Below are positions 1,494-32,249 of a stretch of 64,000 nt of DNA, piece by piece. The notes under the pieces were generated by a model, which was not told where the DNA came from, ran no database searches, and was given only the letters and a program-made list of their open reading frames with translations. The translations under genes were made by a program, and so were the position numbers. This DNA comes from Methanospirillum lacunae (lineage in GTDB: Archaea > Halobacteriota > Methanomicrobia > Methanomicrobiales > Methanospirillaceae). Each line of letters opens with the position of its first letter. The stretch's first letter is position 1. The stretch spans positions 124,001-188,000 of the forward strand of contig NZ_QGMY01000008.1 of NCBI RefSeq assembly GCF_003173355.1. Direction: 5' to 3'.

Positions 1494-2246
1494 TTAATCT
1501 ATTGCAATTCCGCCAAAGTCACGATACTCAAAGCATTCGCATTTGAGATGTGAAAGATTCGGAGCACTTGTCCCGGACTCTAATTCATCAGGTTTTCCTT
1601 TCCATATTACGGTTCCTTTCTCCAGAATAATTACCCTGTCACCGATAATCTGGGCGTCCTTTATTGAATGAGTAACCATAATCGCAGGATGACTACTTGT
1701 AACCAGTTGTTCTCTCAGTTCAAGTCTGATCTTCTCTCTGGCCATAGGATCAAGAGCTGTAAGTGGCTCATCAAGTAACAGGAGATGTGGCTGAACGATA
1801 AGAGCCCTGGCTAGAGCTACACGCTGTCTCTGTCCTCCTGATAGATTTGTCACCCTCTCATTCCTTACATGTGCAATTTCAAGATCCTCAAGGGTCCTCT
1901 GGATCTGAGAAACAATTTGTTCTTTTGGTATCTTTCGCATTTTAAGGCCATATGCGATGTTATCGAAGACAGACATATGGGGGAATAGTGCATAATTCTG
2001 AAACACATATCCAATGTTTCGCTCTTCAGGGGGGGAGAATATTTTTTGTTTAGCGTTGAATACAACGTGACCGTTGAGGACAATTTCTCCATCATCCGGT
2101 TCTAATAACCCTGAGAGAAGGTTGAGAACAGTTGATTTTCCAGAGCCATTTGTACCAAGAAGGATAAGAACTTCTCCGGGATTAACCGTTAAATCTATAT
2201 TCAATTTAAAATCCCTGAGTTGTTTCTCCAGGTTTGCAGTTAACAT
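1494..2246 (-). CDS. modC: Molybdate/tungstate ABC transporter ATP-binding protein
   Basis: This 250-residue ATPase powers import of molybdate or tungstate at the inner face of the membrane. The Walker A motif GTNGSGKST is at residues 31-39, a Q-loop FQN at about 82-84, the signature LSGGQ at 135-139, Walker B LLLLDEP at about 155-161, and the switch histidine in VTHS at about 193. It overlaps the permease gene by one base (TGATG), so the two are translationally coupled. Many ModC proteins carry a C-terminal TOBE/Mop regulatory domain of about 70-140 residues; here the chain ends soon after the ATPase core, so that domain is absent. A separate Mop protein is encoded at 13445. Sulfate or another oxyanion cannot be excluded, but modA and fdhD in the same region favour Mo/W. 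Confidence 0.85.
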   Translation of the reverse strand: MLTANLEKQLRDFKLNIDLTVNPGEVLILLGTNGSGKSTVLNLLSGLLEPDDGEIVLNGHVVFNAKQKIFSPPEERNIGYVFQNYALFPHMSVFDNIAYGLKMRKIPKEQIVSQIQRTLEDLEIAHVRNERVTNLSGGQRQRVALARALIVQPHLLLLDEPLTALDPMAREKIRLELREQLVTSSHPAIMVTHSIKDAQIIGDRVIILEKGTVIWKGKPDELESGTSAPNLSHLKCECFEYRDFGGIAID

Positions 2247-3058
2247 CAGGGTGACCTCCCTGCAAGAACCCGTATTGTAATGAGAATAACACAGGATATC
2301 GCGATAAGTACAAGAGATAAGGATATTGATGCAGAGAGATCATTCTGCATAAAACCATAGATTGCCAGGGGCATTGTCTGTGTCTTTCCTGGTAGATTTC
2401 CTGCAACCATAATGGTTGCTCCAAATTCTCCAATAGCCCGGGCAAAACCAAGAATTACACCAGATACCAGCCCTGTCCATGCGAGAGGTATTGTGATCCT
2501 GATGAATGTTGTAAGTTGTGATGCCCCTAGGGTTCGTGATGCAGATTCATATGACTGATCAACCATAGCAAAGGCAGTTTTTGCCTGTCTGATGTAGAGG
2601 GGCCCTGCAACAAATACCTGGGCGAGTACGACTGCAAAAGTTGTAAAAATTATGGTTATTCCGATACTATTAAAATAGGACCCGATAAGGCCCCTTCTTC
2701 CAAAAAGGACCAGAAGTGAAAGACCGGCAACAGAGGGGGGAAGAACAATGGGGAGATCAAGAAGGGTTTCAACAAAGTCTCTTCCATGATAGGACACCCT
2801 GGCGTTCAGGTATGCCAGAGGAGTGCCTATGATCACCACAATCATTGTTGATGCTGCGGCAGTGATTAGTGAGAGAAAGATTGCACTCTCGACCTCTGGT
2901 TTTAAAATCGCAGCAATAAATTCATCAGGAGTTATCCTGAGCAATAGTGAGATGAGAGGCAGAGTGAAAAAAAGGATTGTTATGAGAACGATAAAACCAA
3001 ATATGACCGGAGCTATCCTGGCTGCCAGAGTTCTGGAATTGATGGTGCCGGGTTTCAT
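2246..3058 (-). CDS. modB: Molybdate/tungstate ABC transporter permease
   Basis: The 270-residue membrane protein has about six transmembrane helices, the first near residues 12-40. A cytoplasmic EAA-type loop (R-T-L-G-A-S then I-P-L-A-W-T-G) sits near residues 175-200 and is the docking site for the ATPase. This pattern is that of the ModB/WtpB/CysT permease family. It is the first gene of a two-gene operon with modC and is transcribed away from the DUF364 gene. No substrate-binding protein lies in this operon; the likely partner is modA at 19067. The assignment to Mo/W rather than sulfate rests on that context. Confidence 0.85.
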   Translation of the reverse strand: MKPGTINSRTLAARIAPVIFGFIVLITILFFTLPLISLLLRITPDEFIAAILKPEVESAIFLSLITAAASTMIVVIIGTPLAYLNARVSYHGRDFVETLLDLPIVLPPSVAGLSLLVLFGRRGLIGSYFNSIGITIIFTTFAVVLAQVFVAGPLYIRQAKTAFAMVDQSYESASRTLGASQLTTFIRITIPLAWTGLVSGVILGFARAIGEFGATIMVAGNLPGKTQTMPLAIYGFMQNDLSASISLSLVLIAISCVILITIRVLAGRSP

Positions 3059-3364: not shown

Positions 3365-4249
3365 ATGAATCAAAATCCTGTATCAATCCTTGAAAAGGGA
3401 TATAATAAACTTCTAAGCGAGTATAATAGGCTAAATCTACCTGAAATCAGAGTGAAACAATTCGGAATCAATCCGGGATGGAATGCTGTCATCGGAACCA
3501 ATGGTTGCTGCGGGGTTGCGATGAGTTTTCAGGACAATAATCCTGTCTATGACTCTGATCAGACCGGATTGGATTATTCATATCTTCAAACCTGTATTGG
3601 CCAACCACTCTTTGAGGTGTCCAGGGAAACGATGTCAGATTCATGTTTAAGTAGACGTTCAATCGGCCTTGCCGCATTAAATGCCCTTTCACAACCGTTT
3701 GTAACAGATGAGATCCTGAAAGAGAAAGGATTCAAAGTTGGGATCGAGGTAAAAGATCTGGTTAGAAGTGATGATAATCTTGTAATTGTTGGATATGGCG
3801 GTCTTGTAAAGAGTTATGCTGGCCGTTGTCGGGAATTACATGTTACAGACCAGCGGCCGGTTGAATCCTTTAAAACTATGATTATTGGTGAAATCATTAC
3901 TTCAGGCCCGGTTGGTATAACTGTCCATCCTGCAGATGAAAACCGGGAGGTACTAGCCGATGCTGATGTGGCAATAATAACTGGTTCGACTCTTGTGAAT
4001 GGAACATTTAATGAGGTAGTCGGATATGCAAAGAATGCCAGAATTAGAGCACTTTATGGATCTAGTGCCCAACTAATACCTGATGTACTTTTTGAGAATG
4101 GCATCAATATCGCGATGTCGGTTGCTATCAGCGATCCTCAAAAGTTTGAATATGATGTCATGAATGCTCCAGATATGGAAACGGCCCTTCGTAAGCATCA
4201 GAGAAAATATAATGTTGGAGATCCCGATAAACTCTATGATATCAAATAG
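3365..4249 (+). CDS. DUF364/DUF4213 family protein, putative metal chelation
   Basis: The 294-residue soluble protein matches the two-part family of DUF4213 (N-terminal, about residues 10-95, with NGCCGVA near 46-52) and DUF364, described as a putative heavy-metal chelation domain (about residues 110-285). The second half has a Rossmann-like core with the glycine run VGYGGLV near residue 140. Another typical stretch, IITGSTLVNGT, lies near 205-220. Members often sit beside metal transporters or are linked to molybdenum or iron handling. Here the gene is divergent from modBC, suggesting a role in Mo/W handling. The exact reaction is unknown and the metal link is inferred. Confidence 0.7.
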   Translation: MNQNPVSILEKGYNKLLSEYNRLNLPEIRVKQFGINPGWNAVIGTNGCCGVAMSFQDNNPVYDSDQTGLDYSYLQTCIGQPLFEVSRETMSDSCLSRRSIGLAALNALSQPFVTDEILKEKGFKVGIEVKDLVRSDDNLVIVGYGGLVKSYAGRCRELHVTDQRPVESFKTMIIGEIITSGPVGITVHPADENREVLADADVAIITGSTLVNGTFNEVVGYAKNARIRALYGSSAQLIPDVLFENGINIAMSVAISDPQKFEYDVMNAPDMETALRKHQRKYNVGDPDKLYDIK

Positions 4250-4287: not shown

Positions 4288-4914
4288 TTACTTAGAAAAA
4301 ATTATCCAGAACCCTGATTCATCATTGATGATCCGAAATTCACTAATACCAGCAGATCGTATACTATCCTCAATCTCACCAGGGCCATATTTACGAAATC
4401 GTACTCCCGGAATTGTCTCCATGTCACATTCTGATGAGTTCTCTTTTTTTTGTTGATTGACGGCATTTCTAATCTCTGATGAACCATACCCTCCACCAAT
4501 GTATGCAAGGCCTCCATCTCTGAGAACCCGACGAATTTCATTAAATGCAATTGGAAGGTTCCTCCAGAAGTGATATGAACCACGGCTCACAACCAGGTCG
4601 CACGATCCATGAGTGAGGGGAATTCTATGAACATCACCGATAATTGGATGTATACGCCCTGATAAATTCTGTAATTTGGTATTTTTCATCAGAAGGGACT
4701 GCATTTTTGCTGAGTTATCAAGTGCCATTATGGATAGATTTGATGAAGTAACTAGTGCCATGGAAAGAGGACCTGGACCTGAACCAATGTCTATACAGGT
4801 TCCATCTCTGATCCCGGTTTTCTCAAGAATCTGGCTGGCAATAACCGGATAAATCTGTGCAAATACAGATCTTGTTAAATTGTCATACCTGTCTGCGTCT
4901 TCAGTTTTCATCAA
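4288..4914 (-). CDS. Class I SAM-dependent methyltransferase
   Basis: The 208-residue soluble protein has the class I methyltransferase fold. Motif I CIDIGSGPGPLS lies near residues 40-51, an acidic residue after the second strand in ALDNS near 68-72, GDVHRIP near 92-98, and VVSRGSYHFW near 107-116. This is the Methyltransf_11/25 type. The substrate is not predictable. The gene converges on the DUF364 gene 38 bases away and is not obviously in an operon. It is the first of five methyltransferases within the Mo/W region. Confidence 0.75.
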   Translation of the reverse strand: MMKTEDADRYDNLTRSVFAQIYPVIASQILEKTGIRDGTCIDIGSGPGPLSMALVTSSNLSIMALDNSAKMQSLLMKNTKLQNLSGRIHPIIGDVHRIPLTHGSCDLVVSRGSYHFWRNLPIAFNEIRRVLRDGGLAYIGGGYGSSEIRNAVNQQKKENSSECDMETIPGVRFRKYGPGEIEDSIRSAGISEFRIINDESGFWIIFSK

Positions 4915-9051: not shown

Positions 9052-9318
9052 CCGTTGCTTGTTTCGGTTATTTTGTTTTCCTTTTTGGCACTGTAGAGAG
9101 GATATAGTAGATGATATTTGGTGTGAACAGAGTGTTGGTATCATTTTGATCAATACTTATTGTATCTTATTATATATCATTTGTATGGAAGATATCTTCC
9201 TAAAACAACTATTTAATTACTATTGTTGTGGATATTTGTAATAGCAGAAAGTCAATTAAATCAGGATATTAATTGAATATGTATTTACGATTTTTATATT
9301 ATATTGAGGATTCAGGTT

Positions 9319-9618
9319 ATGTTTAATACCATTCAGGAAGTTAAAGTCAAACAATGTGGAGACGGGAAGATAAAAAAAGAGTATCTTCTTCCCGGTCCGG
9401 TCAAACGCGAGATGCTCGATTCCATGAAACCTGCAGGAGATATTTACATCATGGATTATCTGGCAGATCCTGTATATACCATTATCAATGGGACCGTTTT
9501 TAATATGAGAGGAGTTATTGGGAAAAAGAAGATTGAAGTCTGGTATGCAGCAGATGAGCTAAAACAGTCAGAAGAATTTCTACTCTCACTGTTTTTGTCA
9601 GTACTTTCAGGGGAATAA
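9319..9618 (+). CDS. Small protein, paralogue of the one at 16577
   Basis: The 99-residue protein starts at the ATG at 9319, with GAGGA 8 bases upstream. It shares a block with the 123-residue protein at 16577-16948: a basic/polar start, then K-x-E-Y-L-L-x-x-P-V-x-R-E, then a variable strand-rich half. It has no signal peptide or membrane segment and a single Cys. I do not recognise a family. Both copies lie beside methyltransferase genes in the Mo/W region, so a shared role with them is a reasonable guess. Confidence 0.6.
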   Translation: MFNTIQEVKVKQCGDGKIKKEYLLPGPVKREMLDSMKPAGDIYIMDYLADPVYTIINGTVFNMRGVIGKKKIEVWYAADELKQSEEFLLSLFLSVLSGE

Positions 9619-11297: not shown

Positions 11298-12122
11298 ATG
11301 CATCTGGACGATATTGACTGGGATATGTTATGGAAAGAAAAGCAGAAGATGCATAATTTCACATCCAATCCCGTTTCGCAGGAGAAGCGATGGGATCAGA
11401 TGGCTTCCTGGTACAGATTCTGGTCAGAGCATGATGAATACCCTCCTAAACTCCTCCAGCGCATTCAAATGGATCGAGAATGGTCTGTTCTTGATATTGG
11501 GTGTGGAACTGGAACCATAAGCATTGCAGCTGCGATGAGAACCAAACGGGTGACTGCTCTTGATGTATCAACAGAAATGCTCAATATTCTGAAAGAAGAT
11601 GCAGAACGCAGGTATCTGGGAAATATCAGGTACCTCCACCAGACCTGGGAAAGTGTCAAAATTGGAATAGATATCAAGCCTCATGACATTGTCGTCGCTT
11701 CCCGTGCAATCTCCCGGACCGGTGATCTCTGTGAATCACTCCAGAAGATTAACCAGGCTGCCCGAGAGTATGCGTATATAACAGCCTGGAGTGGAGAGGA
11801 AGGAGATTTTCCTCAAAACCTTCTGAAGGCAATTGGCAGGAGCTACACAAATACTGCTGACGATATCTATGTCTATAATATCCTACACAAAATAGGAATT
11901 CGCCCCAATGTTGAGCAACTTGAGTGCCGAAATCCTATTTACTATAAAGATCACGAACATGCTCTCCAGAGTTATCAGATGCTATTAAATCTCACACCTG
12001 AAGAGACCGTGTGTGCAAGAACCTACCTAAAAGAGAATCTGGTCCGTAGGCGTGATGGCAGATATGAAACACCAGAAACACGGACCTGGTGGTCACTCTT
12101 CTGGTGGAAGAAACAATCTTAA
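11298..12122 (+). CDS. Class I SAM-dependent methyltransferase, paralogue of the one at 17114
   Basis: The 274-residue protein has a distinctive N-terminal segment (W-D-M-L-W-K-E-K, residues 8-15) before the methyltransferase core. Motif I VLDIGCGTGTIS lies near residues 64-75 and the acidic ALDVS near 88-92. The C-terminus ends in a Trp-rich TWWSLFWW. The protein at 17114-17983 has the same layout: SWAEQW at the start, motif I, and a closing ATIWW. The pair therefore forms a paralogous subfamily with an extended substrate domain. It converges on the Cys-rich protein gene at 12179. Substrate unknown; the context is Mo/W-related. Confidence 0.75.
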   Translation: MHLDDIDWDMLWKEKQKMHNFTSNPVSQEKRWDQMASWYRFWSEHDEYPPKLLQRIQMDREWSVLDIGCGTGTISIAAAMRTKRVTALDVSTEMLNILKEDAERRYLGNIRYLHQTWESVKIGIDIKPHDIVVASRAISRTGDLCESLQKINQAAREYAYITAWSGEEGDFPQNLLKAIGRSYTNTADDIYVYNILHKIGIRPNVEQLECRNPIYYKDHEHALQSYQMLLNLTPEETVCARTYLKENLVRRRDGRYETPETRTWWSLFWWKKQS

Positions 12123-13209: not shown

Positions 13210-13444
13210 ATAACTGCGAATCCATATATTCACATCGCAGTTCAGCCTGCCTTTACACGTCATTTCGTACGCACCAGAAACGTCGTGATCGGAGTAGGAT
13301 ATTCCCGAAATCCATCCGATTTCAAAATGAATCGTAGTGTCTTTTTTTAAGCCCTCTGGTGAGTATACCCTTCGGAAAAAACTATTATTGGCTAGTGCAG
13401 ACATATTACGGTCATCATATTGTGGGAAAAAAGGGTGGAGGTTT

Positions 13445-13654
13445 ATGCGAATCAGTGCTCGAAACTCAATAAATGGAACTATTATTTCTATTACGAAAGG
13501 TGTGGTAAATTCAGAGGTAGTACTTGATATCGGTGACGGTATTCTGGTGACCTCCATAATCAGTACACATGCTGTGGAGAGTCTTGGGCTTAAGGAAGGA
13601 GTTCAGGCATTTGCTGTTATTAAATCCAGTGAAGTGATGATTGCTGTGGATTAA
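13445..13654 (+). CDS. mop: Mop-domain molybdate/tungstate-binding protein (molbindin)
   Basis: The 69-residue protein is a single TOBE/Mop domain. It opens with MRISARNSINGTI and has the conserved second strand ITKGVVNSEVVLDI, then the loop to LGLKEG and the final AVIKSSEVMIAV. Molbindins assemble as hexamers that store or buffer molybdate or tungstate in the cytoplasm. The start at 13445 is fixed by GGAGGT four bases upstream; an upstream in-frame extension to 13337 lacks Mop similarity. It complements ModC at 1494, which has no TOBE domain of its own. The rSAM-SBP fusion gene converges on it 34 bases downstream. Confidence 0.85.
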   Translation: MRISARNSINGTIISITKGVVNSEVVLDIGDGILVTSIISTHAVESLGLKEGVQAFAVIKSSEVMIAVD

Positions 13655-13688: not shown

Positions 13689-15413
13689 TCAGATCCTGGT
13701 GTTTGTTTGATTTGTTTGAATATCATTAAGTAGCGTATTGAGATATTTTTCATCCTCTTCAAGAGAGAATCTGATTATTTCCGGGTGCAGAAGGTTTGCA
13801 AAATACTCAAGTGCAAGAATCCATCTAATTCCGGATACCGGGTATTTCTTTGGGATACAATAAACCTGTTCAGTCTCTATTGCTGGTGCTAAAAGGCCTT
13901 CAATATGACAATGATGGAGAAAATCGGAGGTATCAGATATCCCCATTCCTAGACAAAGGATTATTTCCGGTTGTAGGGCCATGAACTCCTCCCGGGACAA
14001 TGGGTGAGGTCGTGATTCTGTATAGCTTATCTGATAGTTGAGAACATCACCTCCGGCTCTTGCAGCGAGGGCCACCTCCATCTTGTCAGGATATGATGCA
14101 AGATATGGGTGTGAAAGAGCACAAAATACACGTGGATGCCTGAGGTTAGTTACAAATTTTGTAATCTGTTCAAGCCGTTCTGTGTAAAACCCAAGAAGTG
14201 GATGAACCAAATCCTGAGTATCAGCGAACTGGCCAAGTGTTCTGATGTATTCGATGTATCCTTCAGGTGTTGCAAAAAAAGTCTGTAACTTCTCAAGCCA
14301 ATCTCCAGATAGAATCTGTACCAGAACCCTGCTGACCACCTTTTTATCATAAATCCCAAGTTGATTTAGTGTTCCGGAAACCATGTCCAGGAGAACCGAG
14401 GTCCTGTACCCTCCCCTGAATCGAGGTTCATAGCCATCATTTCTATAATATTCCCCGAAAACTGGAATCGTTCTCCCACAGGTGCATTCTGACTGATAGA
14501 TCCTGTTTGTCAGCCGGGCCCCCATTGGGCCATAAAACGTCCGTTCAATAAGCAGGGTCTTACAATCAGGACAATAAGAACTGAGGTTGTATGTCCCGGG
14601 TGTGTTGAAGAGATAAACCCAGTTGAGCCAGGTTTTACACTGAGTGACTAACTTCTCAGCGTCATCTGGTGCAGGTTCACAATCATTATCCGCTCCATTG
14701 AATGGAATGAAGCGCATGATATGCAAAGGAATTTCTGCAGATAAATAAGAAAGATGTCTTGCCAGGTTGGTAATTTCATGCTCCCGCCGGGCTTCGAAAA
14801 CTACTGATACCTCAAGATGAATCCTGGTGTCATGAATGATTTTGATGTTATCAAGCACTTGTTTAACACCACAAGGAGAACCACATGTACGGTACACATC
14901 ATCTGACAGACCCTTCATTCCAATGTTTACCATATCCAGGTATGGGAGAATTTGCCTGAGAACAGGTGATTCCATACACCCGTTCGATGCACATCCCACC
15001 AGTAATCCCTCCTTCTTTAGTGTCTTTGCAGTATTGATTAATGTGTGAAATGAAACTGATGGTTCGTTTAAACAAAAAATGACTCCGAGACATGAATGGT
15101 CCCGAACCTGGTTCAGAATCTCATCCGGATCTGCCTTGAGCAGGGCACCAGCAATCAGGTCAGGATCATCGACAAGCATATGTGATACACATCCTGGACA
15201 TGAAAGATTACAACCAAGAGTTGAAAGGAGCAAATATCTTCCTCCCGGAGTATAGTGAAGGAAGGGGACCGTCTCAATTGCACTAGGCCAAAGTGCCAGG
15301 TACTTATCAGCAAACCGCTCATGCAGGATTCCATTTGCGCAGGTTTGCATCCTGCACTTGCCAGTTTTTCCTTCAGAAATCTGGCAAAAATGCCCACAAA
15401 TTTGGCATTCCAT
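13689..15413 (-). CDS. Radical SAM protein fused to a substrate-binding-protein-like domain
   Basis: The 574-residue protein has two parts. Residues 1-320 resemble the AmmeMemoRadiSam/PflA-like group: a Cys-rich start (C3, C6, C10, C20, C25), the radical SAM cluster motif CNLSCPGC (C68, C72, C75), and a Cys pair region CPDC (281-284) with CTC (310-312). A middle segment (about 320-425) is of unknown type. Residues from about 426 to the end look like the C-terminal lobe of B12/siderophore/molybdate binding proteins (PF01497 type): an RVFCALSHP strand, aGGDVL, LQPEIILCLG, then a final W/A-rich helix and LHPE. There is no signal peptide, so this lobe is cytoplasmic. It follows the true binding protein gene by 16 bases, giving a three-gene operon 16948 to 13689. 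The reaction is unknown. Confidence 0.75.
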   Translation of the reverse strand: MECQICGHFCQISEGKTGKCRMQTCANGILHERFADKYLALWPSAIETVPFLHYTPGGRYLLLSTLGCNLSCPGCVSHMLVDDPDLIAGALLKADPDEILNQVRDHSCLGVIFCLNEPSVSFHTLINTAKTLKKEGLLVGCASNGCMESPVLRQILPYLDMVNIGMKGLSDDVYRTCGSPCGVKQVLDNIKIIHDTRIHLEVSVVFEARREHEITNLARHLSYLSAEIPLHIMRFIPFNGADNDCEPAPDDAEKLVTQCKTWLNWVYLFNTPGTYNLSSYCPDCKTLLIERTFYGPMGARLTNRIYQSECTCGRTIPVFGEYYRNDGYEPRFRGGYRTSVLLDMVSGTLNQLGIYDKKVVSRVLVQILSGDWLEKLQTFFATPEGYIEYIRTLGQFADTQDLVHPLLGFYTERLEQITKFVTNLRHPRVFCALSHPYLASYPDKMEVALAARAGGDVLNYQISYTESRPHPLSREEFMALQPEIILCLGMGISDTSDFLHHCHIEGLLAPAIETEQVYCIPKKYPVSGIRWILALEYFANLLHPEIIRFSLEEDEKYLNTLLNDIQTNQTNTRI

Positions 15414-15429: not shown

Positions 15430-16476
15430 TTATGGAGAGGAGGGTTTATTCAGAGTAACCGGTGTCTTGTCTGCAAGTAATGCAGCGACATCCTTATCTG
15501 TAAGGGTAAGCCGGTAGAATTTCTGATAAAACTCCTTGATTTCTGAGGTCAGGTCATTGTGGACATGGTCGGGATACAAGGTATTCTGGAGCCACATCAT
15601 ACCGAGAACATTTTCAGGTACTGGGAGTTCCCAGGCCATGATATATTTAGGCATACGGTATACCTGTTTTTTCTTGACCGCGGTAAGGTCCTTCCATGCC
15701 GAATCTGTGAGAATATCAGTCACGTTCTTAGAGTTATATGATAACAGAATGATATCATCTGGATTCCAGTTGTAGATCTGTTCCAGTGTAACCTTGCTAT
15801 CGCCTCCCACAACGCCCTGTGCAACATTGTATCCACCAGCAATACCCAATGACTTTGCTTCGTACCAGTCATCACCCAGTGTTGACAATGGCTCCCTCTG
15901 ACCGAAGTATACTTTTGCCCGGTTTACATCAGTATAGTCAGCAACATTCTTTTCCAGTTCGTCAACTTTTCCGTTGTAATAGGAAATGAATTCCTCTGCT
16001 TCTTTCTCTTTGCCGGTGATCTTACCGATCATCTCGTAACTCTTCATAAGAGTATCAGGTGATTCCACATCAACAACAGCAACCGGAATGCCTGTTGCGG
16101 CAATATCTTCATTAACTTTCGAATATGCCTTGTCAGAGATAACAAGTTCAGGCTTAAGAGCAATTAACTGCTCAAGATTTACATTTGTCTTACATCCTGC
16201 ATTTGGAAGTTTACCAAGGTTATTTTCTGTTTCATTTACCTTGTTTCTATCTGCAGGTCCGACACATGTTCCGACCAGTTTGTTGTCAGCACCTATAACA
16301 AAGAAGAATTGGCTTGTAAAAGGATCCACCGTTACAATCCTGTTGACATTTGCTGGAAATTGAATCGTATTTCCCGCCAGATCGGTGATCGTTTTGTTTT
16401 CAGCAAAGGAAACTACCGGGAATACTAAAAGCGCAATTAATAATCCACATAGTAAAAGTTTGAAATTTGTACCCAT
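15430..16476 (-). CDS. Secreted substrate-binding protein of the B12/siderophore/MolA type
   Basis: The product (348 residues from the ATG at 16476, which has GGAG 8 bases upstream) has a signal peptide (hydrophobic core about residues 5-22). A two-lobed class III binding protein follows, with ITDLAGNTIQFP, RIVTVDP, EQLIALKPELVIS and EQIYNWNPDDIIL. Such proteins feed BtuCD-type importers of corrinoids, siderophores or, for MolA, molybdate/tungstate. No permease or ATPase of that type is encoded nearby, so it is an orphan here. The surrounding Mo/W genes favour a MolA-like ligand, but cobalamin or iron chelates remain possible. It is sandwiched in an operon between a small protein gene and the radical SAM fusion. 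Confidence 0.75.
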   Translation of the reverse strand: MGTNFKLLLCGLLIALLVFPVVSFAENKTITDLAGNTIQFPANVNRIVTVDPFTSQFFFVIGADNKLVGTCVGPADRNKVNETENNLGKLPNAGCKTNVNLEQLIALKPELVISDKAYSKVNEDIAATGIPVAVVDVESPDTLMKSYEMIGKITGKEKEAEEFISYYNGKVDELEKNVADYTDVNRAKVYFGQREPLSTLGDDWYEAKSLGIAGGYNVAQGVVGGDSKVTLEQIYNWNPDDIILLSYNSKNVTDILTDSAWKDLTAVKKKQVYRMPKYIMAWELPVPENVLGMMWLQNTLYPDHVHNDLTSEIKEFYQKFYRLTLTDKDVAALLADKTPVTLNKPSSP

Positions 16477-16576
16477 ACATTGCACTCCATTGGTCATGGA
16501 TGACCACATTACTGTTGGGAATATTTAACTAAAATAGTTATGTGGTTTATCGAGTAAAGTTAATTCAGTTTATTAT

Positions 16577-16948
16577 TCATTTGTGCCTTAAGAATATGTG
16601 TTTCAGATACTGTATCGATTTCTGAATTAAAACAAGTGGATACCAATCAGGTTTTTCAGAATCAGGTATGGTTGAAAGAAAACCATGAAAATAGTCCTCA
16701 ATTCCGATTGATATTTCTGGAAGACTTTCAACAACGATAACCGGGCTCTTAAGGATTCCACTGATTTGTAGACCTTCATGATTAGAGATACAATAAGTAG
16801 GAGAGAGATATTGCCAGCCAGTATTTTCATAACTTCCTTGTGAGAGTGCATACAAGACCTCCCTGGTAACCGGGCTGGACAAGAGGTATTCTGTTTTTAC
16901 TCGTCCATCAGAGAGAACTGGCTGGGTTCTGACTGATACAATCTCCAT
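16577..16948 (-). CDS. Small protein, paralogue of the one at 9319
   Basis: The 123-residue protein shares with the 99-residue product at 9319 the block with K-x-E-Y-L-L-x-x-P-V-x-R-E and a following aromatic/strand-rich part. It has a longer C-terminal helix. There is no signal peptide. It is probably the first gene of an operon with the binding protein (101 bases downstream of its end) and the radical SAM fusion. It is divergent from the methyltransferase at 17114. Family not recognised. Confidence 0.6.
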   Translation of the reverse strand: MEIVSVRTQPVLSDGRVKTEYLLSSPVTREVLYALSQGSYENTGWQYLSPTYCISNHEGLQISGILKSPVIVVESLPEISIGIEDYFHGFLSTIPDSEKPDWYPLVLIQKSIQYLKHIFLRHK

Positions 16949-17113
16949 ACATAGGTCATATGTTATGAGAGTTCTTGAAAGTGAGGGATGAACAGGGTGT
17001 ATTCACCTGAATTCAGACCTGCGGTGTATGGGCGGGACCCATGTTTTTCAGGTAATCCGGTATCTCTATATATGTCATTGCAACACAATTCAGAAGTAGT
17101 TCGGGTGGATTGT

Positions 17114-17983
17114 ATGTATCTCCAACAGAAAAACACCTCTCAAATATCAGGTACATCCTGGGCAGAGCAATGGACTCGCCTAAAGGAGAGACATATCCGG
17201 TCGATACATACAAACAATCAAAAGACCTTCTGGGATGATCCCGACAATGTCAGCATGTATCTTGAGAATATCCAGGGGGATTACTCAAAGATGGTGGATG
17301 AACAACTCAGAATTATTGATGCCCCACCTGGATGTTCTGTGCTGGATATCGGATCAGGACCTGGGACTCTTGCGGTTCCTCTGGCTAAACAGGGCTGTAA
17401 TGTAACTGTTATTGAGCAGGCCCCCCTCATGTGCCAGGCTCTTGAAGAATACAGGATTCAACAGGATGTTCCTCTGATAAAGATAATAAACCGGCCGTGG
17501 GAGGATGTTACCTGTGATGAACTTCGGGGTCTGTTTGATCTGATAATATCTTCGTTCTCCCTCACCATGACAGATATAGCCGGAACCATCAGGATGATTC
17601 AACGAATCTCATCAGGAAGAGTCTACCTGTTCTGGTTCCTTACTCTTCCATCCTGGGCTCAAATGATGCAGGATCTCTGGCCTGAACTCCATGGCAGGGA
17701 ATATTATCCTACTCCACTTGCAGACTGTCTCTGGAATGTCCTGTATGAAATGGGAATTTATGCAAATCTTGAGGTCATGGAACCGGCTCCACCAGTTTTC
17801 TATGAGTCAGTTGTGCAGGCTGCCAGGACTATTGCAAAGCAGTTTGAATGTACTGAAGAATGGCAGGATAAAATAATACATGAGTATTTGACCAAAAACG
17901 TCAGTATCACGCCTGATGGAAGGATACTGGCAGGAGGAGAGCATCGAAGCGCGACAATCTGGTGGGATAATCACCGGTTATAA
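17114..17983 (+). CDS. Class I SAM-dependent methyltransferase, paralogue of the one at 11298
   Basis: Motif I VLDIGSGPGTLA and the acidic VIEQA mark a class I methyltransferase. The extended layout (SWAEQW start, WEDV after motif III, long C-terminal domain ending ATIWW) matches the protein at 11298. I chose the ATG at 17114 because GGGTGG precedes it by about 5 bases and the resulting 289 residues match the paralogue's length. An in-frame ATG at 16988 would add 42 residues of unlike composition. The gene is divergent from the operon at 16948-13689 and so may be co-regulated with it. Substrate unknown. Confidence 0.75.
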   Translation: MYLQQKNTSQISGTSWAEQWTRLKERHIRSIHTNNQKTFWDDPDNVSMYLENIQGDYSKMVDEQLRIIDAPPGCSVLDIGSGPGTLAVPLAKQGCNVTVIEQAPLMCQALEEYRIQQDVPLIKIINRPWEDVTCDELRGLFDLIISSFSLTMTDIAGTIRMIQRISSGRVYLFWFLTLPSWAQMMQDLWPELHGREYYPTPLADCLWNVLYEMGIYANLEVMEPAPPVFYESVVQAARTIAKQFECTEEWQDKIIHEYLTKNVSITPDGRILAGGEHRSATIWWDNHRL

Positions 17984-19066: not shown

Positions 19067-19873
19067 ATGAAGATGAATGTATCGTATCTTGCAGTCGGGC
19101 TCATGCTGCTTCTTCTTGCAGTTCAGATCGGCTGTGTTTCAGCTGCAGACACAAATCAGACTGGCCTGACAATCTTTGCAGCTGCATCCCTTACTGGTGT
19201 GGTTGGTGACCTCGATAAGACGTTTGAGGCTTCACACCCTGGGATTACTATCACACCCAACTTTGACAGTTCTGCAACACTTGAAACCCAGATTAAAGAG
19301 GGCGCTTCTGCTGACCTCTTCCTTCCTGCAAGTGACTCTAACATCAACAACCTGATCAAGGTCAACCTGATTAGCAAAGATGATGTCACACCCTACGCAA
19401 CCAACAAACTTGCACTTATTGTTCCAGCAGATAACCCCGCTGGTATCACCGGACTTGCTGACCTTGCAAAGCCAGGTGTAAAGATTGTAAGTGAGACTAA
19501 GGATGTTCCTGTCCGTAAGTACACCGAGCAGATGCTGAATAAGACCGTCAACGACACTGCCTATGGTCAGGCATTTGTTGATGCATTTAAGAAGAACGTC
19601 ATCTCTGAAGAGACCAACGTCGCTGGTGCAACCACCAAGGTTTCCCTCGGTGAAGCAGACGCAGGAATCACCTACTACTCAGATGTCTCAAAAGAACTTG
19701 CTGATAAGATAAAGATCATCGAGATTCCTGAAAACCTCAATGTAGTAGCAAAGTACAATGCAGGTATTCTCACAGAAGCAAAGCAAAAGGATCTTGCAAA
19801 AGATTACGTAAAACTGCTGACTTCTGATGAAGGAAAGACTGCACTGAAAGAGTACAAGTTCAGCCCGGTATAA
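19067..19873 (+). CDS. modA: Molybdate/tungstate ABC transporter substrate-binding protein
   Basis: The 268-residue protein has an N-terminal signal peptide (hydrophobic residues about 7-25, with a Cys at 23 near cleavage, possibly a lipobox-like site). The class II oxyanion-binding fold follows: LTIFAAASLTGVV at about 33-45, FDSSATLETQI, GASADLFLPAS, then GEADAGITYYSD near 200-212. These are hallmarks of ModA. The start is supported by GGAG upstream. A strong terminator follows, so it is monocistronic and would serve the permease ModBC encoded at 1494-3058. It may prefer tungstate; the sequence alone cannot decide. Confidence 0.88.
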   Translation: MKMNVSYLAVGLMLLLLAVQIGCVSAADTNQTGLTIFAAASLTGVVGDLDKTFEASHPGITITPNFDSSATLETQIKEGASADLFLPASDSNINNLIKVNLISKDDVTPYATNKLALIVPADNPAGITGLADLAKPGVKIVSETKDVPVRKYTEQMLNKTVNDTAYGQAFVDAFKKNVISEETNVAGATTKVSLGEADAGITYYSDVSKELADKIKIIEIPENLNVVAKYNAGILTEAKQKDLAKDYVKLLTSDEGKTALKEYKFSPV

Positions 19874-19970: not shown

Positions 19971-20753
19971 TTATTCAATAATGCTGCTCTTTGCACCGAT
20001 AATACGCTCTGGTGATGTATAGATATTCATTTTTCCACCTCTGATGAATCCGATGATGGTAAGCCCGGTTGCTTGTGCCATTTCTATCGCAAGTGAGGTT
20101 GTAGCTCCCCGGGATGCTATCATAGGAATACCTGCAAGTATACACTTTCGTGACATTTCTGAAGATATCCTGCCAGATATCAGGACACAGGTCCGGGTAA
20201 GGTCCCAATTAGTCCGGAGTGCATATCCGATTACCCGGTCGAGAGCGTTGTGTCGTCCGATATCTTCAGTCTTTGTTATCATCGTGTTACTGCTGACAAG
20301 ACCAACGACATGAATCCCTCCGGTTCTGATGTGAAGATCAGAGTCCAGAACCAACTTCAACGCCTGATGGATCCATACCGGATCCATTCGAACATCAGAT
20401 GTGATCAACGGTAGTTTGTTTATGTCAAGAAACGAAGAATCGCCTCCACAACCTGATAATATGGTCTTTTTGCCCTCCCTGATGGCAACTTTTCCAGTTG
20501 TAAGAACTCGAATCGTCTGTTTCTCTATCTGTAATGATTCGATGTCATCTACCTGTTTGATCATCCCTTCAGTGTAGAGGTATCCTACAACAAAGTCTTC
20601 AAGCCGGCTGGGGCTTGTCATGACATTGAGAATCTGCCTGCCATTGACCCACAGGGCATATGGGGCTTCAATAACGACTTCATGATTAGAAGTAGAAAAA
20701 GCGTGATCTATCTCTTTTATACAGGGAACGGTTATCGATAATTCTTCTGTCAT
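19971..20753 (-). CDS. fdhD: Formate dehydrogenase accessory sulfurtransferase FdhD
   Basis: The 260-residue protein matches FdhD, which carries sulfur from a cysteine desulfurase to the molybdenum/tungsten cofactor of formate dehydrogenase. Family features seen are PYALWVNG (31-38), VVGYLYTEG (55-63), the Cys loop SGCGGD (100-105), GGIHVVGL, TEDIGRHNALDRVIG and SGRISSEMSRK. In E. coli the loop holds two Cys in a CxxC arrangement; here only C102 remains and Asp occupies the second position. The presence of fdhD implies formate dehydrogenase elsewhere in the genome and fits formate-driven methanogenesis. A degenerate copy of its 5' end lies at about 24066-24260. Confidence 0.88.
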   Translation of the reverse strand: MTEELSITVPCIKEIDHAFSTSNHEVVIEAPYALWVNGRQILNVMTSPSRLEDFVVGYLYTEGMIKQVDDIESLQIEKQTIRVLTTGKVAIREGKKTILSGCGGDSSFLDINKLPLITSDVRMDPVWIHQALKLVLDSDLHIRTGGIHVVGLVSSNTMITKTEDIGRHNALDRVIGYALRTNWDLTRTCVLISGRISSEMSRKCILAGIPMIASRGATTSLAIEMAQATGLTIIGFIRGGKMNIYTSPERIIGAKSSIIE

Positions 20754-29205: not shown

Positions 29206-30921
29206 TCAGGCTACTTCTACTTCAAGTGCCCGTGGGCGGTACACATGGTCGTCGAACACTGCATAGTTCTCAAGGTTAACAGTGTAACTCTTGGTGAACT
29301 TCTCTTTGATATCACGCATAACCTGTGAGTTTTCAGGCATGGTGACCTTGGTCCAGATGGTGTGTCCCTTCGGCTCTGCAACAATCTCACCATTCTGGAC
29401 GATAACAACTCCTTCCTTGATGGTGTAGGCAGTCTTGGTGAATGCCTCTTCAATCAGTTCTGGGTCAGCCGGGATCTTCTTGGCATCAAGGTTGTAGATA
29501 GATACGTTTCCATCTGCACCCGGAGCAAGGCTGCCGTACATGCTTGACATACCAAGAGCCTTGGCCGGACCTGCACGGGTCATCATGGCAATATCGTAGA
29601 GGTTGAGTTCGCGGTCCATGGAGGCGAGATCGGTTGCTGCAATAACCTTGTCCTTACGCTTCATGGAGTCAAGGGTTGCATCACGGGCCTTTCTGGACAT
29701 GAGCCACTTGATGATACGTGGGTAGCGGCTGAATGGTCCTCCGTTCGGATGGTCAGTGGTGATAAAGGTCCGCATCAGGTCTTTTGCATAGAGTCCAATC
29801 TCAAGACCGACTGCCCACTGGATACCAATGACAGCAACGTCCTTATCATAGACAAATGGCACGATACCTGAACCGGTTTCGAGTTCAACATCACAGTTTG
29901 CCCACTTGCGGTGGTTGAGTTCCATGAGGTGGTGCTCGAATGGACCGTCTGCAGTCATGGTGGTTGTTTCATCAAGAGTGACACATCCGAGATCGACGGT
30001 GATGTTTTCAGTCTTGTTGACGTAGTCCATGACTTCCTTTGCTGCAGATCCAAAGGTTGCCCAGCTGTCACCTTTGTAGGAGTGGAACTGAAGGTGAGTG
30101 TTATGCAGAACCTGTTCTCGTCCGAACTTGTTCTTTGCTTTGTATCCCTCTGCAAGCTTCAGGGTGTCAAGGGTATCTGTATAGTTACCCGGGTTTCCAA
30201 GGTTGTTGGGGTGCAGATGTATTGAGTGGGGCAGACCAAGGTACTCGTTGGTCTCGATAAGGCCCTTGACAATCTCGGCAGGGGTGATATCGAAGTAGGG
30301 AACAGGGTCATGGATAGTGTTACAGTTCTCTCCCCATGCCCAAGCTTCTGTGCCACCTGGGTTGACGACCTTGATACCAACACCGTATGTTGCCTTCAGA
30401 AGCCAGGCGACATATGCAGCGTTGTTCTCGATCTCCTTGTTCTTGAGGTACTCAAGACAGAACCAGTTGTTACCGAATACCGGCATGGCACTGATATCGA
30501 GGATTGGTGTGTCCCTGATCTCTTCATGCACGTGGGGTGCCATGAGTGGAGGCATTGCTGCCTCGTTGACGTAGGTGTATCCCAGACGGGAGTATGCATA
30601 CCCGGTCTTCCAGGTGGTTGGAATTGAGTATCCCATCTCCATCCGTTTACCCTGTTTGAGAATCCCACCACGGTAGTCACCACGGAAAAGTTTGTCTTCA
30701 GGTCTCATCTCACGTCCAAGGTTGACTTTTGGGCCAACTACGTGTGTATGGATATCCACACCACCGGCCATAACAGTCTTACCACTGGCGTCGATGCTCT
30801 TTGCCTTTGAAGAGACCTTTTCTACGATCTTGCCGTCCTTGATAGCAATATCTGCTTTGTCTCCTTTGATTCCGGAGATTGGATCAAAGACGTATCCGTT
30901 CTTGATAATCAGTTCAGACAT
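29206..30921 (-). CDS. fwdA: Formylmethanofuran dehydrogenase subunit A
   Basis: The 571-residue amidohydrolase-fold subunit condenses formate, delivered through an internal tunnel from FwdB, with methanofuran. The binuclear metal site begins with GVDIHTHVVG (two His). The family segment GIKVVNPGGTEAW contains the Lys that is carbamylated in the characterised enzyme, and later ligands lie in HTHLQFHSY and near TTDHPNGGPFSRYP. Length fits the family (about 570). The gene starts three bases after fwdB stops. No Cys cluster motif is present, as expected. Confidence 0.93.
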   Translation of the reverse strand: MSELIIKNGYVFDPISGIKGDKADIAIKDGKIVEKVSSKAKSIDASGKTVMAGGVDIHTHVVGPKVNLGREMRPEDKLFRGDYRGGILKQGKRMEMGYSIPTTWKTGYAYSRLGYTYVNEAAMPPLMAPHVHEEIRDTPILDISAMPVFGNNWFCLEYLKNKEIENNAAYVAWLLKATYGVGIKVVNPGGTEAWAWGENCNTIHDPVPYFDITPAEIVKGLIETNEYLGLPHSIHLHPNNLGNPGNYTDTLDTLKLAEGYKAKNKFGREQVLHNTHLQFHSYKGDSWATFGSAAKEVMDYVNKTENITVDLGCVTLDETTTMTADGPFEHHLMELNHRKWANCDVELETGSGIVPFVYDKDVAVIGIQWAVGLEIGLYAKDLMRTFITTDHPNGGPFSRYPRIIKWLMSRKARDATLDSMKRKDKVIAATDLASMDRELNLYDIAMMTRAGPAKALGMSSMYGSLAPGADGNVSIYNLDAKKIPADPELIEEAFTKTAYTIKEGVVIVQNGEIVAEPKGHTIWTKVTMPENSQVMRDIKEKFTKSYTVNLENYAVFDDHVYRPRALEVEVA

Positions 30922-30923
30922 AT

Positions 30924-32249
30924 TCAGGCCCCCTGTGCATTGAGTTCATCAACGCGGTCAGCGATCTTGTTCAGCAGTTCCTCATCGGTAAGGAGACCCT
31001 GTGGATCGAGAACCTGTCTGAACTGGATTGGTACGTTGTCCATCCTGTATACAATTCCGCCGGTGTCAACACCACAGATACAGACCGGAATGTGCAGGTC
31101 AGAGATCTCAGATGCCATGCAGACGCTTGGATCAATTGTAACCCAGGGGTGCTTTTTGAGATGCTGGACTGCCGGAATTGGGAAGTGTGCACCTGCATCG
31201 GTTCCGATGTTGATGAACATATCAGTTTCATCACGCATTGCCATATCCACTGAACTGGTCTCACCTGGATTCATGTGGGCATAATTCTTCTTGGTAAGGT
31301 CAAGGCAATACGGGAATCCGAATGTCCAGGACCAGACTACACCAGGACCTGCGATATTGTAGTGACCACGCATTGCCATGATCGTCCACTTGGCAACCTT
31401 GTTCAGGTCACGCATAAGGGAGATTGCAATGTCGATGTTGTGGTTACGTCCATCTGAATGGGTGAGTCCCATACCGTAGAAGACAGTACCGAACCTGGCA
31501 TTGGCCATGATCTCGGCAACCTGGAGGATCTGCTCTTTTGGAACATCTGCAACGACATCAGGAAGATCATCTCCATGTCCGTGCATGACCATCCTGAATG
31601 CATCGAAGAGTTCGTAGTCGTGACCTTGCTTTACCCTGACATGAATATCAGCTACGTTTGCAGTATCAGTGTACCGTGGATCGATGACGACTACGGTACG
31701 CTTCTTCTGTCCCTTTCCGGTGAAGAATCCACGAGGGAAGATAGAATACCGCGACATGTGACGTGGGTGTGCGTGTGCCGGGTTGGATCCCCAGTAAACA
31801 ATCACGTCTGCACGGTTCTTAACTTCTCCAAGGGTACACGTCGGGTACCCGTTATCGAATATTGCAAGGAAAGACGGGCCGTGACAGATGGTTGCACAGT
31901 TGTCAAGGCAACCACCTGCAGACTCCATAACACGGGCTGCTGCTGCCTGACCTTCACAGTTTGTTGAACCAAACCCGTACATGAGTGGCTTTTTTGCCTT
32001 GTACAGGTGCTGTGCCGTCCATTCGATGGCTTCCTCGTATGAGATCTCTTTCATCGAGCCATCTGGCTGGCGAAGCCGGGGAAGGCGGTGTCTGTGTTCT
32101 GAGCTTCCGTGTTTGAAGATCTCAGTTCCGATTGCACAGACATTCTCGACCTCAAGCACCTTTTTTCCGTCATCAGAGACAGTGACTCTGACATCATCGC
32201 AGGAGCAGCCACAATATGGGCATCCCACATTCTCGTATACCTTTGGCAT
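30924..32249 (-). CDS. fwdB: Formylmethanofuran dehydrogenase subunit B (Mo/W active site)
   Basis: The 441-residue catalytic subunit reduces CO2 to formate at a bis-molybdopterin Mo or W centre. N-terminal cysteines C10, C13, C17 and C38 fit the [4Fe-4S] cluster. C122 in ATICHGPS is the expected metal ligand; it is encoded as cysteine, not selenocysteine. Cofactor-binding regions include YWGSNPAHAHPRH and VVVIDPRYTDTA. The ATG shares a base with the fwdD stop (TAATG). FwdB and FwdD together equal one molybdopterin oxidoreductase chain. Whether Mo or W is used cannot be read from the sequence. Confidence 0.93.
   Translation of the reverse strand: MPKVYENVGCPYCGCSCDDVRVTVSDDGKKVLEVENVCAIGTEIFKHGSSEHRHRLPRLRQPDGSMKEISYEEAIEWTAQHLYKAKKPLMYGFGSTNCEGQAAAARVMESAGGCLDNCATICHGPSFLAIFDNGYPTCTLGEVKNRADVIVYWGSNPAHAHPRHMSRYSIFPRGFFTGKGQKKRTVVVIDPRYTDTANVADIHVRVKQGHDYELFDAFRMVMHGHGDDLPDVVADVPKEQILQVAEIMANARFGTVFYGMGLTHSDGRNHNIDIAISLMRDLNKVAKWTIMAMRGHYNIAGPGVVWSWTFGFPYCLDLTKKNYAHMNPGETSSVDMAMRDETDMFINIGTDAGAHFPIPAVQHLKKHPWVTIDPSVCMASEISDLHIPVCICGVDTGGIVYRMDNVPIQFRQVLDPQGLLTDEELLNKIADRVDELNAQGA

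Follow-up and report, generated by a model that had tools for sequence, protein, structure and literature searches.

A radical SAM enzyme fused to half of a putative metal-uptake receptor: a widespread protein family of strict anaerobes, most likely involved in obtaining or handling molybdenum or tungsten

Why would a radical SAM enzyme carry half of a metal-uptake receptor, and which ligand would that half hold? The question is raised by a gene for a 574-aa protein at positions 13689..15413 (minus strand) of the window, by which we mean the whole analysed stretch of 64,000 nucleotides from Methanospirillum lacunae (contig NZ_QGMY01000008.1, positions 124,001 to 188,000). A preceding sequence-only reading of this DNA had proposed that the gene joins a radical SAM enzyme to one lobe of a binding protein, and that the product could present a metal or a metal complex for modification. 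We re-examined the gene by analysis of its open reading frame, Pfam profiles, full-length homologues and AlphaFold models.

Residues 1–322 (14448..15413, minus strand) make up a complete radical SAM domain of the AmmeMemo-like type, as indicated by alignment with TIGR04337, by conservation of its cysteines and by a fold match to 3c8f. The Pfam profile PF04055 (Radical_SAM) matches residues 64–203 with 37.6 bits (cut-off 29.5). The cluster motif C68-x3-C72-x2-C75 (CNLSCPGC; 15189..15212, minus strand), conserved throughout the alignment, is preceded by C3, C6, C10 and C20 and followed by C281, C284, C310 and C312. The C-terminal half contains the linker helix and the second (C-terminal) lobe of the PF01497 fold (residues 378–565; 13719..14282, minus strand), according to the PF01497 profile, AlphaFold, Foldseek and residue conservation. 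The match to PF01497 (Peripla_BP_2) extends over residues 381–523, which correspond to positions 92–234 of the 235 in the profile, and scores 29.1 bits against a cut-off of 27.5. By Pfam and Foldseek, the two-lobed PF01497 architecture with its cleft is absent, and only the linker helix and the second lobe are present. The initial estimate of about 150 residues holds for the lobe itself, but the whole domain added to the radical SAM half spans about 240 residues; it starts around residue 330, where a short helical segment leads into the lobe. No stretch resembling a signal peptide was found at the N-terminus (MECQICGHFC...), which is the Cys-rich start of the radical SAM domain; on this point the sequence-only reading was right.

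Structure prediction for the whole fusion from a 36-sequence alignment gave a pLDDT of 88.4 and a pTM of 0.88, and for residues 324–570 alone, from 80 sequences, 91.4 and 0.89. In a Foldseek search, one part of the whole-fusion model resembled the pyruvate formate-lyase activating enzyme 3c8f (TMt 0.77) and the other part the binding proteins 4pag, 4mo9, 4ovk and 4hn9. With the C-terminal model as a query, the best 50 matches listed were PF01497-type binding proteins only, including the same four entries, CeuE, MolA (3psa) and BtuF; TM-scores by query ranged from 0.41 to 0.63, and about half of each target was covered. Since this model matched nothing but PF01497-type proteins among its best 50, the suspicion that the C-terminal region is not PF01497-like is refuted; sequence, predicted fold and structural search agree. 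The fusion of a radical SAM enzyme with a binding-protein lobe is confirmed by Pfam profiles, AlphaFold and Foldseek alike. Judged by its CX3CX2C motif and its modelled partial TIM barrel, the protein is a predicted member of the radical SAM superfamily; as a whole it is, by its sequence, a putative cytoplasmic protein composed of a radical SAM enzyme and half of a metal-uptake receptor.

The likeness to AmmeMemoRadiSam proteins noted earlier applies to the fold and the cysteine pattern, but does not extend to membership of the AmmeMemoRadiSam system. TIGR04337 (AmmeMemoSam_rS) aligns over positions 12–329 of 349 with 114.7 bits, below its cut-off of 220. In a phylogeny built on the radical SAM half, all fusions form one clade (99% SH-aLRT) and the sister group is a clade of stand-alone radical SAM relatives (96%); the true AmmeMemo enzymes constitute a 100% clade apart from both. 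The AmmeMemo rows L193 and L194 were disregarded in this tree (wrong reading frame), and L064 represents a fusion cut by a contig end. The true AmmeMemo enzyme of the genome is encoded on another contig than the fusion, and the only MEMO gene is located on contig C6, the fusion being on contig C8. The AmmeMemoRadiSam assignment was rejected on the score, the separate clade and the lack of a nearby MEMO gene. The name of a glycyl-radical activase was also considered, and dropped or ranked low.

The stand-alone sister enzyme is followed by a gene for a 390-aa protein without a Pfam match at L065:9865-12014, L076:5480-7692 and L094:3129-5329, in operons that carry a FecCD importer. In Desulfobacula, a stand-alone sister enzyme and a fusion are both found within one gene string.

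The fusion is widespread among strict anaerobes. The 108 genomes examined from the window's archaeal family contain about 40 full-length copies, with up to three per genome and two in the genome of the window itself. A single-sequence query against genome contigs gave no confirmed relative. An alignment-based profile scan of 84,980 species detected 238 related loci, among them loci in Methanomicrobiales, Methanosarcinales, Desulfobacterota, Bacillota and Campylobacterota. The best 80 of these 238 relatives belong to Methanobacteriota (46), Thermodesulfobacteriota (14), Bacillota (14), Myxococcota (3), Campylobacterota (2) and another group (1). The same full-length architecture was observed in 95 distinct proteins from two domains of life. 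C68, C72 and C75 are kept in 94 of them, and the N-terminal cysteine set together with C281, C284, C310 and C312 in at least 93; at least 97% of the sequences retain the GGY motif at residues 334–336 and the lobe residues P436, GG454-455, N459, P482, C502, A511 and P544. A recent accidental fusion or an annotation artefact has only the unusual architecture in its favour, and practically no chance of being correct in view of so many distinct full-length proteins with invariant residues in both halves. The search in other genomes refuted in particular an accident confined to one strain, and this reading was dropped.

The family is apparently new to description: searches of the open-access PMC literature on this fusion, on AmmeMemoRadiSam function and on Mo/W yielded no description of a radical SAM/PF01497 fusion. 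In some genomes of Methanomicrobiales the coding sequence is broken into two open reading frames close to the domain border, and in Methanoculleus chikugoensis two copies of the fusion face each other; these cases are found at L084:9001-10737, G258:C1:19689-21423 and L097:8989-11474.

Within the window, the fusion gene is preceded by a gene for a secreted full-length PF01497 binding protein (15430..16509, minus strand; PF01497 103 bits), which has a signal peptide and which the sequence-only reading had correctly assigned to the same superfamily. Further upstream is a gene for a 123-aa protein (16577..16948, minus strand) without a Pfam or NCBIfam match, whose cluster occurs near fusions in 11 of 94 neighbourhoods. 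These three genes are probably one unit, because the binding-protein and fusion genes are separated by only 16 bp on the same strand and the 123-aa gene precedes them. Neither a FecCD gene nor a methyltransferase gene of the MT2 type adjoins the fusion in the window; the binding protein is the only importer component that does so. A gene for a Mop/TOBE molybdopterin-binding-type protein (13337..13654, plus strand; TIGR00638 73.5 bits with a cut-off of 55, PF03459 49.8 bits) converges on the fusion gene with 34 bp between the stops.

Class-I SAM methyltransferases (PF13649) are also encoded in the window, at 16988..17983 (plus strand), divergently from the three-gene unit, and at 11298..12122 (plus strand); at 4288..4914 (minus strand) the MT2 profile detected a homologue of the small methyltransferase encoded ahead of the fusion at other loci. 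A DUF364/DUF4213 putative heavy-metal chelation protein (3365..4249, plus strand; PF04016 83 bits, PF13938 43 bits) is located near a ModB-like permease and an ABC ATPase (1494..3058, minus strand; permease 2246-3058, PF00528 and ModB profile; ATPase 1494-2246, PF00005 and ABC_ATPase profile). A ModA-type binding protein (19067..19873, plus strand; PF13531 175.7 bits and ModA profile) is followed by FdhD, a maturation factor of the Mo/W formate dehydrogenase (19971..20753, minus strand; PF02634 235.6 bits). The FwdA and FwdB subunits of formylmethanofuran dehydrogenase, a Mo/W enzyme, are encoded at 29206..32249 (minus strand; TIGR03121 769 bits and TIGR03129 620 bits, both over the cut-off).

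Positions 1–17 kb of the window form the right end of an island of about 100 kb (contig C8, about 42–141 kb; loci L029-L034). The island contains 17 of the 31 PF01497 matches of the genome, many SAM methyltransferases, three MoeA genes, XdhC and DUF364 genes, and the second fusion copy (C8:66357-68051). Two HmdB-like radical SAM genes lie beside PF01497 genes in the same island (L031:9842-10843, plus strand, and L031:10973-12019, minus strand; TIGR03957 about 124 bits, below the cut-off). The small protein at 16577-16948 (minus strand) and another one at 9304-9618 (plus strand) constitute one unnamed family, with 34% identity over 62 residues; both are found in Mo/W and methyltransferase settings.

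Across 94 fusion loci, the genes seen most often near the fusion encode a small class-I SAM methyltransferase, an ABC ATPase, a PF01497 binding protein and a FecCD permease; the 45 loci of 17–20 kb include a binding protein in 35, a FecCD permease in 34 and an ATPase in 39 cases, and Gram-negative loci additionally carry TonB receptors. Of 95 distinct fusion copies, 54 have a methyltransferase gene immediately before them. In 24 of these 54 the two genes overlap by 4 bp, which indicates coupled translation.

Genes linked to Mo/W are enriched in these neighbourhoods. We counted ModA, ModB, DUF364, FmdE, MoeA, Mop, XdhC, TsaA and the HTH-PBP_like regulator in archaeal fusion loci of at least 17 kb and, for comparison, in 40 stretches of 20 kb placed arbitrarily in genomes that are related to the fusion carriers or in part identical with them. 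At least one such gene is present in 17 of 22 fusion loci versus 2 of 40 random stretches, and the p-values of this comparison are a guide only, because the fusion loci are related to one another. The individual counts in the 22 loci and 40 stretches, respectively, are 7 and 0 for ModA, 7 and 1 for ModB, 10 and 1 for DUF364, 7 and 1 for FmdE, and 5 and 0 for Mop. In the longer loci of the GTDB set, no Mo/W gene was seen in about half of the 45. A ModE-like gene adjoins the fusion locus in Sulfurospirillum.

In Desulfosporosinus fructosivorans, NifD-like, NifK-like and NifH-like genes are located between the methyltransferase and the fusion (L107:5193-8902), and more nitrogenase-type genes are located downstream. 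A 760-aa gene beside the fusion locus of Methanogenium marinum (L145:5402-7684, minus strand) apparently encodes two tandem PF01497 binding proteins.

The lobe could be a docking or sensing domain only, with an activase-like chemistry acting on a separate protein or peptide; the lobe would then recognise the partner or report the Mo/W status, as cytoplasmic PBP-type regulators do. The radical SAM half is most like glycyl-radical activases and AmmeMemo, and cytoplasmic PBP_like regulators (HTH with PF12727) are encoded beside several fusions. We nevertheless regard this role as improbable, since no conserved gene for a substrate peptide or partner adjoins the fusion except the methyltransferase and the importer.

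The binding proteins provide a clue to the ligand. The closest characterised relative of the window binding protein in the PDB set is MolA HI_1472 (3psa; 117 bits, E 7e-33), the matches ranked above it being structural-genomics entries without an assigned ligand; BtuF is matched with about 30 bits (E about 2e-6). When the fusion-lobe profile was run against the whole genome, its best stand-alone match was the same adjacent binding protein (91.3 bits). In 12 of 17 genomes, the stand-alone binding protein most similar to the lobe is encoded no more than about 15 kb from a fusion or a stand-alone radical SAM gene. The fold does not name the ligand, because the lobe profile matches MolA weakly (35.8 bits) and also matches heme, siderophore and B12 binding proteins (IsdE, BtuF); with the profile of the whole fusion, MolA was not recovered. 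We also asked whether the lobe and the adjacent binding protein had diverged together in a specific manner, and the outcome was negative (partial r 0.13, p 0.18). The early suggestion of a metal or metal complex has gained independent support, pointing to Mo/W, from RNA elements, neighbouring genes (Mod, DUF364, FmdE, Mop and XdhC) and the kinship with MolA. The lack of specific co-divergence does not favour a role of the lobe in presenting the complex to the radical site.

The RNA elements were identified in the bacterial fusion loci by a search with Rfam. L109 and L124 each contain one Moco riboswitch and L113 contains two; L127 has two Moco-II RNAs. In L124 (Geobacteraceae), the Moco riboswitch and, after it, a terminator-like hairpin are located 424 nt before a binding-protein gene that overlaps the fusion; the gap between the riboswitch and this gene contains the apparent remnant start of another binding-protein gene. 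In L127 (Pelobacter), the two Moco-II RNAs lead an unbroken same-strand run of genes for a methyltransferase, a TonB receptor, a binding protein, FecCD, an ATPase, FmdE, a second methyltransferase and, at its end, the fusion. In the genome of L138 (Desulfuromonadales), a Moco-II RNA lies 9.4 kb upstream of the fusion on the same strand and precedes a run that starts with a methyltransferase and a TonB-receptor gene. A Mo/W RNA is thereby found ahead of the fusion's own gene string in three cases. Some of the RNAs, namely those in L109 and L113, belong to nearby Mo/W operons rather than to the fusion, and several bacterial fusion hosts have no Mo/W RNA anywhere in the genome. A Mo/W RNA is present within 20 kb of the fusion in 7 of 21 bacterial genomes versus 1.14 expected from the total number of these RNAs in each genome (simulated P 2e-5), and within 10 kb in five of the 21 versus 0.58 expected.

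PF01497/FecCD importers often carry B12 or heme, and the enzyme might serve the salvage of corrinoids or tetrapyrroles: a BtuFCD-like importer would deliver the compound, and the fusion would remodel or open its ring, as ChuW does with heme. The matches of the lobe profile to IsdE and BtuF agree with this, as does a cobalamin riboswitch just downstream of a frameshifted fusion copy (L144:4099-4285), oriented toward apparent cobalamin genes. Within the bacterial loci covered by the Rfam search, this cobalamin riboswitch is the only one, against four Moco riboswitches and two Moco-II RNAs in total, and none of the fusion operons is led by a cobalamin element. Among characterised proteins, the window binding protein is most closely related to MolA rather than to BtuF, and Mo/W genes are enriched near fusions. 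A corrinoid substrate is less likely than a Mo/W complex, and we consider the salvage scheme quite improbable.

The fusion family most likely helps strict anaerobes to obtain or handle Mo or W, because its genes adjoin those of a methyltransferase and an importer of metal chelates and, in several bacteria, stand in operons led by Mo/W-sensing RNAs. We estimate the probability of the Mo/W link at about 0.75. The fuller proposal, that the fusion is a cytoplasmic enzyme processing a Mo/W complex within a Mo/W acquisition module, seems to us evenly balanced. According to it, the binding protein and the FecCD/ATPase importer, with a TonB receptor if there is an outer membrane, would bring in a Mo/W compound, probably an organic complex; a chelate seems preferable to the bare oxyanion. 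Two cytoplasmic enzymes from usually coupled genes, the class-I SAM methyltransferase and the radical SAM enzyme, would act on this compound. The receptor lobe would hold the ligand, or the part that bears it, before the radical SAM barrel; it presumably binds the same ligand as the importer and may receive it from there. The chelator could be built, or broken to free the metal, and the sequence is compatible with either. Since the first lobe is lost, it is suggested that the radical SAM barrel may supply the other side of the cleft. We tentatively extend this to a specific and rather unlikely version, in which the Mo/W complex docks on the receptor half, and this half and the mouth of the barrel make up a catalytic cleft. 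The complex would be methylated and radically cleaved or assembled there, yielding free metal or a non-pterin Mo/W cofactor by an undescribed supply route.

In a chelator-making variant, the methyltransferase, the radical SAM enzyme and DUF364 would build a Mo/W metallophore that is exported and re-imported, and the lobe would grip the product or sense its metal-bound form. The methyltransferases, O-methyltransferase, importer and TonB receptors of the loci resemble the content of metallophore loci, and an MFS-type transporter gene is located beside the fusions in two Methanospirillum loci (L030 and L040). DUF364 has been tied to heavy-metal chelation and was proposed to make a flavin- or pterin-type chelator (PMC2954201). 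The annotated neighbour clusters include neither a condensing enzyme nor an NRPS nor a nicotianamine-type synthase, and exporters are rare beside fusions; we regard such synthesis as doubtful.

The supply of Mo/W to anaerobes for formate and formylmethanofuran dehydrogenases or for nitrogenase in sulfidic, Mo- and W-poor settings is poorly understood. If the Mo/W reading is correct, the fusion family ties many undescribed importers, methyltransferases and radical SAM enzymes to this supply in methanogens, syntrophs and sulfate reducers, and the fusion offers a single protein from which to trace the ligand. For the radical SAM group of the AmmeMemo-like type, it supplies a relative with a recognisable attached receptor.

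Among known systems, the AmmeMemoRadiSam enzyme (TIGR04337) shares with the fusion the four N-terminal cysteines, the CX3CX2C motif and the layout of the C-terminal cysteines; the fusion differs in reaching half of the cut-off, in forming its own clade and in the added receptor domain. The archaeal MoeA1-PBP fusion, a close parallel in its logic, likewise joins a cytoplasmic binding-protein domain to a Mo/W-handling enzyme in anaerobes, and capture of Mo/W with channelling to the active site was proposed for it (PMC11733289). The enzyme in that case is MoeA, whereas here it is a radical SAM protein with a single lobe of the PF01497 superfamily, and Pfam detected no MoeA domains in the fusion. 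MolA of the molybdate/tungstate importer MolBC-A has the same fold as the fusion lobe, but is two-lobed, secreted and devoid of an enzyme, unlike the linker helix and C-lobe of the cytoplasmic fusion; genes for a binding protein, FecCD and an ATPase occur near most fusions, as the counts above illustrate, and in the window only the binding protein adjoins. The Btr-type regulators (NF049932) presumably set a precedent for a PF01497 domain whose target is an imported metal complex and whose place of action is the cytoplasm. Unlike the fusion, they are transcription regulators that contain the complete PF01497 domain and lack a radical SAM moiety. Finally, the structural-genomics entry 4pag from Sulfurospirillum deleyianum is a close orthologue (607 bits) of the binding protein whose gene in Sulfurospirillum cavolei lies two genes ahead of the fusion. 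It is a stand-alone receptor rather than a fusion, and offers a solved structure of a partner receptor in the fusion system.
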